Made by a program: the position numbers and the translations under genes. Positions 23,086 to 33,011 of a stretch of DNA of 41,730 bases are shown piece after piece; position 1 is the stretch's first letter, and every line of letters begins with the position of its first letter. The stretch is from Flavobacteriaceae bacterium. GTDB taxonomy: Bacteria > Bacteroidota > Bacteroidia > Flavobacteriales > Flavobacteriaceae. A model generated the notes under the pieces. That model searched no databases. It was not told where the DNA came from and worked only from the letters and a program-made list of their open reading frames with translations. The stretch is taken from assembly GCA_002707745.1 (NCBI GenBank), contig PANU01000033.1:1-41730 (forward strand), in the 5' to 3' direction.

Positions 23086-23130
23086 TTATGGGAAACCGTA
23101 AAATGGTCTGAGATTTTATTCTGATATTGG
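23086..23130 (+). promoter_or_regulatory. Palindrome TTATGG-GAAA-CCGTAA with weak -7 box
   Basis: A 16-bp imperfect palindrome (23086-23101), one mismatch from TTACGG-N4-CCGTAA. It is followed after exactly 21 bases by GATATTGG (23123-23130, 6 of 8 to TAnnTTTG if N positions count as matches). The same layout occurs at 28785 and 28905. It may drive the EcsC-like gene at 23368 through a long leader. Confidence 0.4.
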
Positions 23131-25278: not shown

Positions 25279-25914
25279 TTACTTCAATGAACTACACATA
25301 TGTTCCGTAATCATATATCGGGTAATATCATTTAAAGTTTTGCCATTTATTGGGTGTATGCCCGGATACGTAAATAATTCCAAGTTATTCTTTCCTTGTT
25401 TATAATACCATATTTTAGGGCTACCATCTTTATCAAAGAAGAAACCCTCATGACACTCCACCTCCACCTTCTTAAATTTTGTAAGTAAACCTTTATCAAT
25501 CGGTTTCGCATTGGTTTCTTCACAATGAATCTTTACAAACTTAGTTTCATCCCAGATCATACATTTTTTCCGAGTTGCATCATAAATGAAAAAAGCAACG
25601 ATTAATAAAAGAACCAATACCATAAATTGATATCTTTTTGTATTAATCTTTTTGGTATTCTTACTCGCTACATAGCTTTTATAATCTTCAAAATCTAGAT
25701 ATATGGCTAAGTGATCTTTTGCAGTATTTGAAATATTAAATGACTCTTTATTTTCCCATTTCCGATAATAACCCCGAATCGCATCTGCCGACGTTGGTTG
25801 TTTAAATTTTAATTCAAGTGCTTCATAAATATGAGTTGCCAATCCTAAAGCGGAACTTGCTGTACTATTCTCTTTTGCTTTATTGAATGCATCTGTAAGC
25901 AACTGTTCTTGCAT
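25279..25914 (-). CDS. Single-pass membrane protein with N-terminal HTH-like region
   Basis: A 211-aa protein of unrecognised family. Residues ~1-85 are charged and helical and include a segment (TSADAIRGYYRKWENKESF) that looks like a small DNA- or protein-binding helical domain. One transmembrane helix follows at ~94-112 (FMVLVLLLIVAFFIYDA). The C-terminal ~95 residues would be periplasmic and contain four cysteines (KKCMIW, HCEET, ECHEGFF, HMCSS) and aromatic residues. It could be a membrane-spanning sensor or regulator. It is divergent from the lipoprotein/histidine kinase cluster, so a role in that signalling is plausible but not shown. Confidence 0.6.
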   Translation of the reverse strand: MQEQLLTDAFNKAKENSTASSALGLATHIYEALELKFKQPTSADAIRGYYRKWENKESFNISNTAKDHLAIYLDFEDYKSYVASKNTKKINTKRYQFMVLVLLLIVAFFIYDATRKKCMIWDETKFVKIHCEETNAKPIDKGLLTKFKKVEVECHEGFFFDKDGSPKIWYYKQGKNNLELFTYPGIHPINGKTLNDITRYMITEHMCSSLK

Positions 25915-26479: not shown

Positions 26480-28111
26480 ATGAAAACATTACTGTTCTTG
26501 TTCCTCTTTTTTTTATGTCCCTTTTTAACTTTAGGGCAAGAGAATTCTGATAGCCTTAAATATTATTATTACAGCATTGTTGAACCAACAGAAAAATCGG
26601 ATATTCCTTCTGCCGTTAATTTTTTTGAAAATTATAAAAGAATACGTTTAGAATCAAAGGATACTCTACAAGCAGTTTATTCAAGTAGATTAATTTCTCA
26701 GGCTGCGCACTATGTTGGAGATGTCAACGAGAGTGAACTAGAAGCTGTGGATGGATTAAAACTGATTGGCGAAAAAAAGTCTGAAGCGTATGATGAGCAT
26801 CGCATGGGTTTATATACACAACTGGGGATGGTATATCGAAAATTAAAAGATTACGACCAAGCCTTGACAAACTATGATAAAGCTTTGGGATTTAAACTAC
26901 ATCCAAAAGAGCGTATCAACCTTTTGAATAATAAAGCGAATGCCTTTAAAGCAAAAGGAGACTATATAAATGCCCAAGCTATTCTCCAGAATGCCTTAGA
27001 AATTAGTATTCGCAAAAAGTTAACCATGAGCCATGCCTTGATCTTAGATAATTTGGGAGAGGTCCAACAACGACTTAACAATCCAGAATCACTAAATACA
27101 CTACATAAAGCCTTAAAATTACGATTGTCATCTGAAAATCTTAAGTATCGCTTTACTTCCTACTTAAGTTTAGCAGATTACTATAAAACTTCTAATCCTG
27201 ATTCCTCAAATTATTATGCTCGTAAAGCCCAAGTAACTGCTGAAAAACTGAAAAATAAAGCATATAAGCTAGAAGCACTTAGTACGTTGTTAAAGAATAG
27301 TTCCGATCCGAATATTAGAGAATTTATCGTTTTGTCTGATAGTATTTCGACTGCTATTCAAAATGAGGATAATAAATATGCTCAACGAAAGTGGAATGTT
27401 TTAAAAGCAGAACAACAAACTGAACTCGCTAAAATTGAAAAACAAGAAGAACGAAACAAGCGCATTCTTTACCAATGGATTGGTGTTTTAATTGTTGTTA
27501 TAGGCATCTTATTATTTCTGGTGTTTCGGCTTAAACATAAACGGGAACAAACCAAACAAGTGTATACAACCGAAACACGAATTTCCAAAAAAGTACATGA
27601 TGAAGTGGCCAACGATCTTTATAAACTCATGGCTAAAATTCAAACATCCCATGATACAGATGAAGTTTTGTTAGACGATTTAGAAGCGGTGTATCAAAAA
27701 ACCAGAGATATTTCCAAAGAATCCAGTCTCATACCAGTAGACAAAAATTTTGGTAATGTAATTAAGGGGTTACTAATGGATTATCAAAGTGACAATCTAA
27801 ATGTAATTACTAAAAACTTAGGTAATATAACCTGGGATGATATCAGCGAAGTGAAAAAAATCACCCTCTACAGAGTACTGCAAGAATTAATGACCAATAT
27901 GCGAAAGCACAGCAAGGCAACAATAGTGGTTATCACTGCGAAGCAATCGGGCAAGAAACTAGATGTCACCTATACAGATAATGGGGTGGGAAGTGAATTA
28001 AAAAAGCATAACGGTCTTCTTAATACGGAAAACCGTATTCGCTCGGTGAATGGAACTATTATATTTGATACTACTATTAATAAAGGATTCACGGCTAAAA
28101 TAAGGCTATAA
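26480..28111 (+). CDS. TPR-containing sensor histidine kinase (HisKA_3/NarX type)
   Basis: A 543-aa membrane kinase. A signal peptide (MKTLLFLFLFFLCPFLTLGQ) leads to a periplasmic region of tetratricopeptide-like repeats (~100-270, such as YTQLGMVYRKLKDYDQALTNY). A coiled segment and one transmembrane helix (~326-349) follow. The dimerisation box ISKKVHDEVANDLYKLM has the phospho-acceptor His373. The ATPase domain has an N-box-like ELMTNMRKHSKAT, with Asn in place, and a G-box DNGVG. The response regulator starts one base after its stop, so the two form a cognate pair. The TPR architecture is frequent in Bacteroidota kinases; the signal is unknown. Confidence 0.9.
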   Translation: MKTLLFLFLFFLCPFLTLGQENSDSLKYYYYSIVEPTEKSDIPSAVNFFENYKRIRLESKDTLQAVYSSRLISQAAHYVGDVNESELEAVDGLKLIGEKKSEAYDEHRMGLYTQLGMVYRKLKDYDQALTNYDKALGFKLHPKERINLLNNKANAFKAKGDYINAQAILQNALEISIRKKLTMSHALILDNLGEVQQRLNNPESLNTLHKALKLRLSSENLKYRFTSYLSLADYYKTSNPDSSNYYARKAQVTAEKLKNKAYKLEALSTLLKNSSDPNIREFIVLSDSISTAIQNEDNKYAQRKWNVLKAEQQTELAKIEKQEERNKRILYQWIGVLIVVIGILLFLVFRLKHKREQTKQVYTTETRISKKVHDEVANDLYKLMAKIQTSHDTDEVLLDDLEAVYQKTRDISKESSLIPVDKNFGNVIKGLLMDYQSDNLNVITKNLGNITWDDISEVKKITLYRVLQELMTNMRKHSKATIVVITAKQSGKKLDVTYTDNGVGSELKKHNGLLNTENRIRSVNGTIIFDTTINKGFTAKIRL

Positions 28112-28112
28112 T

Positions 28113-28778
28113 ATGTTTACAAAAGTGTTGGTCTCGGACGATCTGGGCAGTATTAATTCTGGGGTATCCAGTATTCTCAATGAGATAGGCGTTAAAGAAA
28201 TAATCCAGGTCCAGTATTGCGATGATGCGTATCTCAAAATAAAGAGCGCTGCACTGCACGAAGCACCTATCGAATTATTAATTACAGACCTATCGTTTGT
28301 ACCAGATCACAGAGAGCAAAATTTTACCTCAGGAGAACAATTAGTGACCATTTTAAAAAAAGAACATCCTGAACTTAAAATAATCGTGTATTCTGTGGAG
28401 GATCGTCCCCAACTCATTAAAAGACTAATTAACGATTTAAAAATTGATGGCTATGTTTCCAAAGGTCGAAATGGTCTTGCGGAATTAAAAGATGCTATCA
28501 ATAGTGTTGCAAAAGGAAGCATATACACTTCTCCACAACTAAGCCAGTTTTCAAAACAAAAAGAACGCTTAGAAATTGATGATTTTGATATTGAATTAAT
28601 GCGCTTATTATCTCTGGGAAAATCGCAAGAGGAAATCAGCACCAACTTTAAACAAAGCAACATTTCTCCTAGCAGCTTAAGTACCATAGAAAAAAGATTA
28701 AACCGCCTGCGTATTCAATTTAAGGCCAACAACGCCATCCATTTGGTAAGTATTGTGAAAGATCTGGGGTTAATATAA
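28113..28778 (+). CDS. LuxR/NarL-like response regulator
   Basis: A 221-aa two-component regulator. The receiver domain (1-130) has the acidic pair in VSDDLG, phospho-acceptor Asp59 in LLITDLSF, Thr/Ser in IVYSVED and Lys in YVSKGRNGL. The C-terminal domain (~150-221) is a helix-turn-helix of the GerE/LuxR class, though the recognition part is unusual (LLSLGKSQEEISTNFKQ... STIEKRLNRLRIQF). It is coupled to the TPR kinase. Two palindromic promoter candidates lie within 150 bases downstream of the gene, and a third is at 23086. These are the obvious candidate targets of this protein (inference). Confidence 0.9.
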   Translation: MFTKVLVSDDLGSINSGVSSILNEIGVKEIIQVQYCDDAYLKIKSAALHEAPIELLITDLSFVPDHREQNFTSGEQLVTILKKEHPELKIIVYSVEDRPQLIKRLINDLKIDGYVSKGRNGLAELKDAINSVAKGSIYTSPQLSQFSKQKERLEIDDFDIELMRLLSLGKSQEEISTNFKQSNISPSSLSTIEKRLNRLRIQFKANNAIHLVSIVKDLGLI

Positions 28779-28784
28779 TTCCAT

Positions 28785-28829
28785 CTACGGATTCCCGTAA
28801 AATAATTTCAAGAAATAGCTATACAATTG
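28785..28829 (+). promoter_or_regulatory. Palindrome CTACGG-ATTC-CCGTAA with -7 box TACAATTG
   Basis: A 16-bp palindrome (28785-28800) with five paired bases per arm, followed after exactly 21 bases by TACAATTG (28822-28829, one mismatch to TAnnTTTG). The expected transcript start is near 28833, and a terminator at 28870-28899 would end the transcript within about 65 bases. The palindrome centre falls near -40, the usual place for an activator that contacts RNA polymerase. Confidence 0.5.
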
Positions 28830-28832
28830 TGG

Positions 28833-28899
28833 TGTTGAATGGCCACACGGCTTTCACAATGGGGAGCTTAAAAAGACACTATATCAGGTGTCTTTTTTT
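28833..28899 (+). ncRNA. Candidate short terminated RNA (about 65 nt)
   Basis: Bounded by the promoter candidate at 28785-28829 and the strong hairpin terminator at 28870-28899, with no normal gene between. It contains a 10-codon frame from ATG 28839 to TAA 28871 (peptide MATRLSQWGA), so it could be a small RNA or a mini-peptide message. The start is estimated from the -7 box only. Confidence 0.35.
28870..28899 (+). terminator. Rho-independent terminator
   Basis: A perfect ten-base stem AAAAAGACAC / GTGTCTTTTT (28870-28879, 28888-28897) with an eight-base loop and a T tail. It can end both response-regulator transcripts and the short RNA that starts near 28833. Confidence 0.9.
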
Positions 28900-28904
28900 G
28901 TGGG

Positions 28905-28949
28905 TTACGGGATACCGTAAAGAATACTTAAAAACGATTAGTAGGTTTG
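28905..28949 (+). promoter_or_regulatory. Palindrome TTACGG-GATA-CCGTAA with perfect -7 box TAGGTTTG
   Basis: A perfect 16-bp palindrome (28905-28920), then exactly 21 bases, then TAGGTTTG (28942-28949), a perfect -7 consensus. The palindrome centre would be near -40 and the leader to the ATG at 28983 about 30 bases. No -33 TTTG is needed if an activator binds here. It shares GGTTAyGGGAwACCGTAAA with the site at 23086. Confidence 0.6.
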
Positions 28950-28982
28950 ATGATACAACTAAAACTAATTAATCAACTCTCC

Positions 28983-29699
28983 ATGAAAAAAACAATACTC
29001 ATTGTTATTCTCACCTTTATATTAATGCCGAAATCCAGTGCCCAGGACGATGGGGTTCTTGGCGCAGCTCTAGGATTAGCTGCAATTGGAGGGGCAATCA
29101 TTGCTGTGGATCAAATGAAAGAACAGGCAGAATTGCGAGCTACAGAATGGCTACTCAACAATAGACCAGAAATGTCAAGCTTCTCCCTTAAAACACTTGC
29201 TTTTGACGGCAAGAAAGCAAAAGATATGTCGGCCGTCTCTGTGATTACCTATAAAATTCAAGAGTTTCAACTTCAGGATAAACCAGAATTGAACGGAAAA
29301 AAATATCTTCTGTTTGGATTTACAAGCTATGGCTGGGCCAATGAAATGGGAGTTGATTTGAGCCGTGTTAGCTGGTATATGATAGATGCAGCTGAATGGA
29401 CTAATATGATGGTGGCGTATGTAAAAACTGCTTCCGATGAACGCAATGATAGCACCATAAAAGAGCGCTTAAAAACGGGAAAAATAGTTAACAAGGGAAT
29501 TAAGGATGGGTTTGACTATACCATTCCATTTTTCAGGCTAGAGGGTGATATGTATGCTGTACGCGACTATAATGAAATGATGAAATTAATCTACAACGAG
29601 CGTTCACTGGGCATCTATCTAAAAGAAACTTCAGATTTGGTTCAAATTGGCCGTGGTGATATTATAGATATTCATGAGTTTTTCAATGAGGAGGACTGA
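28983..29699 (+). CDS. Secreted hypothetical protein
   Basis: A 238-aa exported protein of unrecognised family. ATG 28983 gives a signal peptide (MKKTILIVILTFILMPKSSAQ); an in-frame ATG at 28947 overlaps the promoter box and is rejected. The mature start is Gly/Ala-rich (GVLGAALGLAAIGGAIIA), possibly a second membrane-interacting helix. The rest is mixed alpha/beta with several aromatics and no cysteine in the mature part. It is the gene directly downstream of the best palindrome/-7 promoter, so it is the leading candidate output of the adjacent two-component system. Confidence 0.65.
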   Translation: MKKTILIVILTFILMPKSSAQDDGVLGAALGLAAIGGAIIAVDQMKEQAELRATEWLLNNRPEMSSFSLKTLAFDGKKAKDMSAVSVITYKIQEFQLQDKPELNGKKYLLFGFTSYGWANEMGVDLSRVSWYMIDAAEWTNMMVAYVKTASDERNDSTIKERLKTGKIVNKGIKDGFDYTIPFFRLEGDMYAVRDYNEMMKLIYNERSLGIYLKETSDLVQIGRGDIIDIHEFFNEED

Positions 29700-29771: not shown

Positions 29772-30167
29772 ATGTGGCATAAAATAATTGATGTATATGA
29801 TTGGTTCGGAGAACTTGGGGAGCGAATTAAAGTTGTGAGAGATTTTAATAAAGCTGCAAAATTTGCATTTGTAAGTGGCCAAGCACCAACTTTGCTTCAA
29901 GTTAAAACGACTAAGGGAGATTCAAATTATCGTCATGCTTTTTCAAAATGGATGGCTGGAGGATTTAGAATTAAAGCTCTATCTGGGCAATCTTTACCTA
30001 AAAACCAATTAATTGAGATTGCTCGTGTTGTACTTGATAATGAAGAACTAATTCGTAAACTAGTTTCACTAGGCTGGGACACGTTGGAAGTACATGATAA
30101 CAAAGGTTTCAAGGGTGTAAAATTCCCTTTAAAAGATTATGCAAAAATAGGTGGATTCTTAAATTAA
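29772..30167 (+). CDS. Hypothetical protein
   Basis: A 131-aa soluble protein with no domain I recognise. It has a basic middle (HAFSKWMAGGFRIKALSGQSLP) and a C-terminal pattern (WDTLEVHDNKGFKGVKFPLKDYAKIGGF) suggesting a small alpha/beta fold. It lies 6 bases before the J-domain-like membrane protein and is probably in its operon, so a role as its soluble partner or client is possible but unsupported otherwise. Confidence 0.55.
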   Translation: MWHKIIDVYDWFGELGERIKVVRDFNKAAKFAFVSGQAPTLLQVKTTKGDSNYRHAFSKWMAGGFRIKALSGQSLPKNQLIEIARVVLDNEELIRKLVSLGWDTLEVHDNKGFKGVKFPLKDYAKIGGFLN

Positions 30168-30173
30168 AGATGT

Positions 30174-30614
30174 ATGGCAAATCTTATTCAAAAAGTAACT
30201 GATTCAATTCCAAGTACAAACGAACAAACTTTGGTTAATTCACAATTGTCACTTAATGATGAATTCAATTGGTGGATCGTATTTGCATCCATTGAATTTT
30301 TACTCATAGTATTCCTATTAATAAAATTATTGAAAACAAATCGTGAGCAATCAGTTATCACAAATGGCTTTGACGAGCTAAGAAAAGCAAAATCAAATGA
30401 CATTGACATGACGAACCTTATGAACAGTATTAACTCATCTAGAGTTCTATATAAAGAGCTTAGCCGAAAGTGTCATCCTGATAGATTTCAAGATGAAATG
30501 ATAAAGAGAAAAGCAGATATAATATTTCAGGATATTTCAAGGCACAAACGAGATCATACCAGATTAACTGAACTGAAGCAATTGGCTGAAAAAGAACTAA
30601 ATATAAACTTTTAA
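30174..30614 (+). CDS. Membrane-anchored J-domain-like protein
   Basis: A 146-aa protein with one transmembrane helix (residues ~34-52, WWIVFASIEFLLIVFLLIKL) and a cytoplasmic C-terminal half. That half contains YKELSRKCHPDRF, with the HPD tripeptide at 101-103, preceded by a helix of the kind seen in DnaJ domains and followed by a second charged helix (KADIIFQDISRHKRDH). HPD is the part of J-domains that activates Hsp70 (DnaK). The domain is short, and the helix after HPD lacks the usual FxxIxxAY pattern, so this may be a degenerate or divergent J-like module. Confidence 0.55.
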   Translation: MANLIQKVTDSIPSTNEQTLVNSQLSLNDEFNWWIVFASIEFLLIVFLLIKLLKTNREQSVITNGFDELRKAKSNDIDMTNLMNSINSSRVLYKELSRKCHPDRFQDEMIKRKADIIFQDISRHKRDHTRLTELKQLAEKELNINF

Positions 30615-30625
30615 ATATAAATATT

Positions 30626-30826
30626 ATGGAAGGAGTAATTACTCTAATCTTTCTAGCTCTTAGAATCGGTATCACTATTTATTGTGTAAACAAGGCAGGA
30701 GAATTAAATAGAAGTAAAGGCGGCTGGGGGATATTTGGATTTTTATTGCCAATAATTGCTTTGATTTGGATTCAATTTATGAAGCCAAAAATAGTTTGGG
30801 ATGATCGAAGTGGTCAGCATGAATAA
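30626..30826 (+). CDS. Small membrane protein
   Basis: A 66-aa protein with two hydrophobic helices (~4-20 and ~36-52) joined by a loop with GELNRSKGGWG, a pattern common in small two-helix inner-membrane proteins. It starts 11 bases after the J-like gene, on the same strand. No function can be assigned. The short spacing and tidy helix pattern support its being real. Confidence 0.55.
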   Translation: MEGVITLIFLALRIGITIYCVNKAGELNRSKGGWGIFGFLLPIIALIWIQFMKPKIVWDDRSGQHE

Positions 30827-31442: not shown

Positions 31443-33011
31443 ATGACCAAAAAGAATACCAACAAAAAAGAAAAATCAATTGAAGAAACCCTCTGGGCTT
31501 CTGCCAATAAATTACGGGGTTCTGTAGAGAGTGCGGAATATAAACATGTGGTACTGGGACTTATATTCCTAAAATTTGCCAGCGATAAATTTGAAGCCAA
31601 ACGCGCGGCGCTCATTGCCGAAGGAAAAGAAAAATATGTAGAGATGAAAGAATTCTACAACCAGAGCAATGTTTTTTACCTGGCGGAAACATCTCGGTGG
31701 AGCTATATTGTTAAAAATGCCAAGCAAGATGATATAGCTTTAAAAATTGACACGGCGCTACACAATATAGAAAAGAACAATCCCAGCCTTAAAGGGGCAC
31801 TGCCGGATAATTACTTTAGCCGATTGCAACTGGACAAAAGCAAACTCGCCTCACTGCTGGACACCATTAATAAAATTGACACACAAAAAGACCCCAGCCA
31901 GGACATCGTGGGGCGTGTATACGAATATTTTCTCTCCAAATTTGCCCTCGCCGAGGGTAAAGGAAAAGGAGAGTTCTATACTCCAAAAAGTATTGTAAAC
32001 CTTATGGCTGAAATGATAGAACCTTACAAAGGCATTATCTATGACCCTGCCTGTGGCTCCGGCGGTATGTTTGTACAGTCCATAAAATTTATAGAGAGCC
32101 ATCACGGGAACAAACAGGAGGTTTCTATTTATGGGCAGGAATATACCAACACCACTTATAAACTTGCAAAAATGAACCTTGCCATACGGGGTATTGCGGG
32201 AAACTTAGGCGAAAAAGCAGCAGACACCTTTGGGCAGGACCAGCATCCTGACTTAAAAGCAGATTATATTATGGCAAACCCACCCTTTAACCAAAAAGAT
32301 TGGCGGGGTGCCAATGAGTTGGTGGACGACCCGAGGTGGATGGGGTATGAAGTTCCTCCCAAGAGTAACGCCAACTACGGTTGGATTTTGAATATGGTAA
32401 GTAAATTAAGCGATAATGGCGTAGCGGGGTTTATCCTAGCAAATGGCGCCTTATCTGGTGGCGGTGAGGAATATAAAATACGCCGAAAGCTGATAGAAAA
32501 TAATTTGGTAGAAGCCATTGTGATTTTACCACAGAATATGTTTTACACCACCAACATTAGTGTAACGCTCTGGATTTTAAACAAAAACAAAAGAAGCCAT
32601 ACAAAAGATATTGGTGATGCCAAGCGACACCTCCGCAATCGGGAAGAAGAAGTGTTGTTTATGGATTTACGCCAGATAGGCGTCCCGTTTGAAAAGAAGT
32701 TTATACAGTTTAGCGAACCGCAAATTAAAGACATTGTTAAGACTTACCACGATTGGCAACAACAAGACAACAATTACAAAGACGTACCAGAATTTTGCTA
32801 TAGTGCCACGAAAGCAGAAATTGAGAAAAAAGATTTCTCGCTGGTACCCAGCAAGTACATTGAATTTGTGAACCGCGATGAAAATATAGATTTTGATGAA
32901 AAGATGGGCGCTTTGGCTGCTGAAATGAAAATCTTATTGCAAAAAGAAGCCCAATCTAAAGGCGATTTATTAACCGTTTTTAAGGAATTGGGGTATGAGA
33001 TCGAGCTATAG
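31443..33011 (+). CDS. hsdM: Type I restriction-modification methyltransferase subunit
   Basis: A 522-aa N6-adenine methyltransferase subunit (HsdM) that, with HsdS, methylates the host recognition sites and forms the core of the type I complex. The helical N-terminal domain is typical (WASANKLRGSVESAEYKHVVLGLIF). Motif I is DPACGSGGMF (201-210) and motif IV is NPPF (279-282). The order I before IV is that of gamma-type enzymes. The C-terminus is helical and binds HsdS. It overlaps the hsdS start by 17 bases. Codon use is host-like, unlike the AT-rich cargo further on. A palindrome and -7-like box lie just upstream. Confidence 0.95.
   Translation: MTKKNTNKKEKSIEETLWASANKLRGSVESAEYKHVVLGLIFLKFASDKFEAKRAALIAEGKEKYVEMKEFYNQSNVFYLAETSRWSYIVKNAKQDDIALKIDTALHNIEKNNPSLKGALPDNYFSRLQLDKSKLASLLDTINKIDTQKDPSQDIVGRVYEYFLSKFALAEGKGKGEFYTPKSIVNLMAEMIEPYKGIIYDPACGSGGMFVQSIKFIESHHGNKQEVSIYGQEYTNTTYKLAKMNLAIRGIAGNLGEKAADTFGQDQHPDLKADYIMANPPFNQKDWRGANELVDDPRWMGYEVPPKSNANYGWILNMVSKLSDNGVAGFILANGALSGGGEEYKIRRKLIENNLVEAIVILPQNMFYTTNISVTLWILNKNKRSHTKDIGDAKRHLRNREEEVLFMDLRQIGVPFEKKFIQFSEPQIKDIVKTYHDWQQQDNNYKDVPEFCYSATKAEIEKKDFSLVPSKYIEFVNRDENIDFDEKMGALAAEMKILLQKEAQSKGDLLTVFKELGYEIEL

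Follow-up and report, generated by a model that had tools for sequence, protein, structure and literature searches.

ComA of Bacillus subtilis, which belongs to the ComP/ComA quorum system, is an activator with a tetrahelical helix-turn-helix (HTH) that recognizes a TTGCGG inverted repeat, for which a spacer of four bases is optimal. There the inverted repeat mediates type I activation, and type II activation depends on another repeat, which is direct (PMC4797271). For promoters of Bacteroidota, mapped transcription starts in F. psychrophilum place a TAnnTTTG box at -12 to -5, and the -33 TTTG motif is needed for full activity of such promoters without being essential (PMC9723704, PMC2483708).

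In the current study, a stretch of 41,730 nucleotides (the window) was analysed together with related loci from other genomes. The reading that we favour, with a probability of roughly 0.85, is that a kinase and a response regulator encoded in the window act as a class II activator system that drives the regulator's own gene, a small RNA and a secreted protein. The kinase (26480–28111) would phosphorylate the response regulator (28113–28778), a dimer of which would bind TTACGG-N4-CCGTAA at a fixed position, where the palindrome replaces the -33 element, and contact RNA polymerase from there. A promoter inside the end of the kinase gene would drive the regulator, giving positive feedback on the regulator alone. 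The second promoter would yield a small RNA of about 65 nt that ends at a terminator, and the third would drive the secreted protein. Comparison of sequences shows the site with its spacing and orientation, its linkage to the regulator, the constraint on the codons of the in-kinase site and box, and the terminator that follows the first downstream site, while the identity of the binding protein, its phosphorylation, the activation and the synthesis of the RNA are inferred.

The kinase, the regulator and the palindromic sites

The sensor histidine kinase (26480–28111, + strand) has Pfam matches to TPR and HATPase_c, an HDE-type kinase core and, as read by eye from the sequence, a signal peptide and one membrane span. 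Its C-terminus is UhpB/LiaS/NarX-like. Relatives were compared mainly in 80 named regulator loci (1.24 Mb; two of them are second records of genomes already included), and in 79 of these a relative of the kinase was found by tblastn.

The gene that follows (28113–28778, + strand) encodes a NarL/RcsB-like response regulator with a receiver domain, a four-helix HTH and a DUF5932-like C-terminus. The structure model of this protein (pLDDT 89.8) consists of the receiver and four C-terminal helices. The nearest solved full-length structures were those of RcsB (Z 20.9, 5.1 Å over 196 residues), of which chain 6eo3_B aligns over regulator residues 1–217, and other NarL-type regulators were also among the nearest full-length matches. 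Pfam Response_reg was matched in all 34 aligned regulators, in which D10, D59 and K117 are invariant, with the window's own protein scoring 24.4, below the curated cut-off of 30.2. In the C-termini of the same 34 proteins GerE gave no Pfam match, and DUF5932 was matched in 24. Since DUF5932 is found instead of GerE, the regulator represents a divergent branch of the NarL/FixJ (LuxR-type) class, to which it is assigned by its domains and its modelled fold. Binding of an inverted repeat by a regulator dimer, phosphorylated by the cognate kinase, is consistent with the symmetry of the site and with the adjacency of the two genes.

In the source genome of the window (2.76 Mb), the exact core TACGG-N4-CCGTA occurs in three copies, all within 900 bases at this locus and all on the + strand. 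The first site, ATACGGAAAACCGTAT (28023–28038; matrix score 33.5), lies inside the kinase coding sequence, where its codons are synonymously constrained. The -7 box TATATTTG (28060–28067, 8/8 match), whose bases are likewise constrained, begins 21 bases past this palindrome, with 45 bases between the box and the start codon of the regulator, and +1 is expected near 28072. The second site, CTACGGATTCCCGTAA (28785–28800; one mismatch, score 26.1), lies after the regulator gene and is followed at 21 bases by the box TACAATTG (28822–28829, 7/8), which would place +1 near 28834. The third, TTACGGGATACCGTAA (28905–28920), has no mismatch and a score of 35.2, and its box TAGGTTTG (28942–28949, 8/8), again 21 bases past the palindrome, leads to an expected +1 near 28954. 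The scoring matrix had been trained on 153 sites of other species, with a minimum of 20.7 and a median of 32.8 among the training sites.

The original prediction was of three sites, at 23086, 28785 and 28905, each with an 8-base box that begins exactly 21 bases past the 16-mer and matches at 6, 7 and 8 of 8 positions, respectively. These measurements are accurate, and the two sites after the regulator gene, with correct coordinates, palindromes and spacing, are well supported by their exact cores and matrix scores; the site at 23086 is not supported, and the one inside the kinase gene (28023–28038) had been overlooked. The genome-wide scan that had been proposed as a check found the palindrome-plus-box pattern with 0–1 mismatch at three places only, all at this locus. 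As the assembly is only 82% complete and consists of 111 contigs, extra copies of the motif could be absent from it. When the window was scanned loosely for TTACGG-N4-CCGTAA (up to three mismatches), 16 hits were obtained against 12.9 expected, and 19 of 100 shuffles reached 16, which is the level of chance.

The candidate at 23086–23101 (+ strand) is a weak look-alike and probably no site. It differs from TTACGG-N4-CCGTAA by one mismatch and its box matches at 6/8 positions. It was rejected as a regulator site, given that its matrix score of 10.9 is below that of every training site (minimum 20.7) and that, at its level of up to three mismatches including the box, the genome gave 30 hits for the pattern and 30 for the reversed control. 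Matrix scores of 9 or more are so rare in simulated windows (about 0.05 per window, 20 windows) that the look-alike is somewhat better than a random spot. Three genes compared from its surroundings (23368, 24068 and 24714) had no relative among the 80 regulator loci, and the first gene of the island, which had been named as a possible target on account of this site, is not supported as one.

The distance between palindrome and box is fixed in the relatives. In the window and 22 loci of nearby genomes, all 25 palindromes (three of them the window's own) had a box matching at 5–6 of 6 positions at 21 bases on the strand of the regulator, while the opposite strand gave box scores of only 0–4. The 80 named loci contained 123 palindromes in 62 loci, and a box of at least 5/6 was found at the one exact spacing in 105 of these, the best count at any other forward spacing being three. 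At the forward spacing the box was missing for 18 of the 123, and 12 palindromes carry a box at the same spacing on the reverse strand. The consensus of the site in relatives is TTACGG-N4-CCGTAA; palindromes with N2, N3, N5 or N6 spacers and three control palindromes gave 0 or 1 site each in these loci, 18 of which had no exact palindrome. When gaps of 8–38 bases (31 lengths) were allowed in 397 genomes of the family, the one spacing accounted for 122 of 150 among the matches listed, and for at least 69 of the 122 a regulator gene is no more than 5 kb away. Relative to the regulator, sites fall mainly at three positions: at about -91 (in the kinase gene), at +680 (just after the regulator gene) and at +800 or further. 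The rule of a fixed spacing is thus upheld by 105 of 123 palindromes, and a random placement relative to -7 boxes was not seen.

A candidate small RNA and protein targets

The stretch after the first downstream site is predicted to yield a small RNA of about 65 nt (28834–28899, + strand), with a GGCC/GGCU hairpin, an unpaired GGGGAG (28861–28866) and a terminator (28870–28899). The sequence from 28834 to 28898 folds better than its shuffles (z -3.6), and short terminated RNAs are predicted at the same place in relatives. Of the 98 loci whose sequence extends far enough, 68 have a relaxed site (palindrome at least 8/10, sum with the box at least 13) between +656 and +850. A strong terminator follows within about 110 bases at 31 of these 68 first sites versus 1 of 63 later sites, a GCTATTA-like motif at 23 versus 1, and GGGA at 33 versus 4. 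Five shuffles gave, out of 68, 0–1 terminators, 0–2 GCTATTA-like motifs and 10–22 occurrences of GGGA, so that GGGA alone is only modestly enriched; terminator and GGGA together were found after 24 first sites and in no shuffle. With 31 of 68 positive, over half of the first sites are without such a terminator by this test. The difference between first and later sites supports the earlier suggestion that a short RNA is a likely target.

Searches with Rfam gave no match in the window at the gathering score of any family, and when nine loci were searched with E up to 1, a tRNA was the sole match. An RNA model (R1) that includes the promoter box was kept sequence-only because the automatic alignment gave no consensus pair. 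At E < 0.01 it gave 20 matches in the 80 loci, each of which follows a regulator copy: 14 training members, one second record (L044, which equals the training locus L006) and five new places (L091, L045, L047 and a further two in L044). Of the 16 training members in these loci, L042 and L043 were missed at E up to 1. From this recovery, the small RNA would be only loosely conserved. A peptide frame of 10 codons in the short RNA of the window was rejected by eye; L005 has no ATG at that place.

Several observations were made on individual loci. L044/L006 carries the regulator twice, at a distance of about 7 kb, and both copies have an in-kinase site, a match to the short RNA and further sites. 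At +799 in L041, +826 in L061 and +1428 in L099, the second palindrome is extended to CCTTACGG-N4-CCGTAAGG and followed by T, and it seems to serve also in terminating the short RNA upstream of it. A structured element with an outer GGCC stem and a G-rich loop is found downstream of a site in Maribacter and two further loci (L051, L055, L057, L058, L063, L066, L068, L069, L079, L078 and L023); in the last two the outer stem is GACC, a change seen by eye only.

In Maribacter, a different-looking element with a GGGG loop occupies the position of the short RNA and leads into the secreted-protein gene in five loci. We read this element and the short RNA as one functional position. In the Maribacter loci L057, L058, L063, L069 and L079 the element separates the site from the secreted-protein gene and a second exact site is absent, as would be expected if the stretch after the first site were an attenuator or leader of the gene behind it rather than an independent small RNA. 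Such a role is possible though unlikely, in that the window and several relatives have a second site and promoter past the terminator, and later sites rarely have terminators (1 of 63). An independent small RNA, made from the promoter of the first downstream site, is the preferred interpretation.

The gene of the secreted protein (28983–29699, + strand) is the likely protein target. Relatives that are 55–63% identical were found in 10 of the 80 loci, and in eight of these (all but L040 and L085) the gene is immediately preceded by a site with a good box, in agreement with the original prediction. The protein had no Pfam or NCBIfam match, and its fold model (pLDDT 37.5) was unusable.

A protein like that encoded at 29772 was found in three of the 80 loci, and in L042 and L090 a site immediately precedes its gene. 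With its two neighbours this gene forms a block of small genes (29772–30826, with genes at 29772, 30174 and 30626) that recurs together in L042, L049 and L090. Other genes behind sites are TerB-like, HNH-like or lipoprotein-like, and the predicted protein targets are variable among loci. Relatives of hsdM, the restriction methylase gene of the window (31443–33011), were found near the regulator in nine of the 80 loci (L037, L042, L070, L083, L090 and four others), which suggests a recurrent island position. PADLOC, applied to 80 of 211 downstream ORFs (plus strand, loci L034–L092, with L084 and L085 left out), detected no common defence system, with one ORF per family among 25 of 54 families listed.

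Probable sign of regulation and probable binding protein

With the box at the position known from F. psychrophilum, which may not be that of the host, the palindrome covers -49 to -34 and lies over the -33 region, with its centre at -41.5; the palindrome centre near -40 that had been proposed is supported by this value. A centre near -41.5 is the position of a class II activator. The aligned sites have no clear -33 element, and for these two reasons activation is the likelier sign. The regulator is proposed to be a class II activator because the palindrome stands in for the -33 element.

Positions that overlap the -33 region are used by repressors too. The regulator could thus bind and repress, with the palindrome, which overlaps the expected location of the -33 element, serving to block the polymerase. 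Repression of this kind is improbable, because the aligned sites offer no clear -33 element by which the promoters could work unaided, the centre at -41.5 and the rigid spacing fit activation, and ComA, whose site is the nearest one known, acts as an activator.

The presence of the site is strongly linked to that of the regulator. Among 397 Flavobacteriaceae genomes, the regulator was detected in 147 and the gapped site-plus-box pattern in 113, with 99 genomes having both, 14 the pattern only, 48 the regulator only and 236 neither (Fisher 1e-40). Hence the site is present in 99 of 147 regulator-positive and 14 of 250 regulator-negative genomes, and the regulator in 99 of 113 site-positive and 48 of 284 site-negative ones; 48 of the 147 regulator-positive genomes had no exact site-plus-box match. 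A reversed control pattern was unlinked to the regulator (16/147 versus 26/250). Of the 14 regulator-negative exceptions, six (G014, G074, G138, G264, G334 and G414) show the exact spacing in the matches listed, five have other spacings only, and three are absent from those matches. In one of these genomes (G014, locus L028) a relative of the regulator is present in pieces with stop codons, and the genome retains correctly spaced sites. Among 295 genomes of the class, all 10 with the exact pattern, including the window's own genome, were among the 12 that are regulator-positive (Fisher 6e-17); two of the 10 are from another family of the order and two from a family outside it. Copies in genomes that lack the regulator are therefore few (14 of 250), and the proposed link of a local regulon to the adjacent NarL/LuxR-like regulator is borne out by co-occurrence and by the proximity of the sites.

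A linkage of this kind would also be produced if the palindrome were bound by a different protein that accompanies the kinase and the regulator, e.g. that of the divergent gene located before the kinase gene (25279–25914, - strand), a relative of which was found in 40 of the 80 loci. This is very unlikely: good sites occur with no detected relative of that gene, as in the Maribacter loci L051, L055, L057, L058 and L066, and the in-kinase site and the sites that flank the regulator point to the regulator. It was also observed that a site points towards the divergent gene in L047, L056, L080 and L100. The gene had no Pfam match, and a matrix scan of the window's own intergenic region found no such site.

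As an alternative to protein binding, the palindromes could be mobile repeats or serve to terminate transcription. This idea would suit L041, L061 and L099, where a palindrome followed by T ends an upstream short RNA, and can practically be dismissed in view of the fixed 4-base spacer, the single distance to the promoter box and the codon constraint. The regulator, probably phosphorylated and probably activating, is thus the preferred candidate for the binding protein.

The end of the kinase gene, and known systems

The kinase gene ends were compared in 92 of 101 non-duplicate loci, those in which a kinase end of the form G-[LIM]-x-x-x-E-[NSK]-R-[IMVL] lies just before the regulator. In the codons of the palindrome, Asn is encoded by AAC in 74 of 74 cases, Ala by GCG in 27 of 27, Val by GTG in 19 of 19, Thr by ACG in 39 of 41, Glu by GAA in 92 of 92, and Arg by CGT in 85 and CGC in 7 of 92; as the species are related, these are not independent events. 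In the upstream part of the same genes the frequencies are 30% for AAC, 11% for GCG, 20% for GTG, 11% for ACG and 14% for CGT. Many loci carry GCG or GTG instead of ACG, so that the left half-site reads TGCGG or TGTGG, which leaves the right half as the only perfect one.

The synonymous statistic is highest within the palindrome, at codons 4, 6 and 7 (342, 233 and 313), with 61 and 50 at codons 3 and 5 of the palindrome. It rises again, to 101 and 42, at codons 15 and 17, which contribute their third bases to the -7 box. Codons 13, 16 and 19, near the box, showed a bias of 98, 60 and 90 at bases outside the TAnnTTTG consensus. The rest of the 48 codons tested gave values of 0–45. Identity of the regulator to the window's protein ranges from 38 to 73% across relatives, a divergence at which saturation of synonymous sites would be expected.

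The end of the kinase gene thus appears to carry a regulator site and a promoter box within protein-coding bases, and this site should drive the regulator gene itself. That the site is a mere by-product of conserved protein sequence (T/A-E-N-R-I and G-T-I-x-F), an idea favoured by the conservation of those amino acids in kinases of this group and by the bias at codons 13, 16 and 19, for which the box consensus does not account, is hardly credible when the synonymous choice is near-fixed relative to the codon usage of the same genes and far above that of the surrounding codons.

A wider reading, to which we give slightly better than even odds, combines this dual code in the end of the ATP-binding domain with a new small RNA as the conserved core output (RNA motifs GCUAUUA and GGGA) and with protein targets that are swapped between genera, some of them beside restriction genes. 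It would apply to a family of two-component loci that is widespread in Flavobacteriaceae and extends to two or more further families of the class.

Among the matches listed in a search of open-access literature (titles and starts of abstracts), no description of this site, RNA or in-kinase promoter was found, and the name DUF5932 was absent from the literature searched. The results would supply a DNA target and a promoter rule for the large DUF5932 branch of response regulators, with which regulons could be read from sequence in many marine flavobacteria. They would also provide a natural example of a regulatory site and promoter inside protein-coding sequence in which the synonymous constraint is measurable, and they indicate a candidate new small RNA.

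Among known systems, the enterobacterial Rcs system is similar in that the nearest full-length structures include RcsB on the rprA promoter (according to the entry title). The regulator described here, like RcsB, probably drives a small RNA, which is rprA in the case of RcsB. RcsB differs in its site and phosphorelay, and rprA is not located beside rcsB.

The host of ComA belongs to another phylum. The consensus of the sites here is not that of ComA, although many in-kinase sites have a TGCGG left half. Compared with the ComA box TTGCGG-N4-CCGCAA, the present site is one base off per half and has the same 4-base spacer, and here the inverted repeat itself occupies the type II position; an in-kinase site is present here, and none is mentioned for ComA in the available part of the source (PMC4797271). 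Compared with the sigma-A promoter of Bacteroidota, which has TAnnTTTG at -7 and TTTG at -33, the -7 box is the same (PMC9723704, PMC2483708), and the palindrome would take the place of the -33 element.
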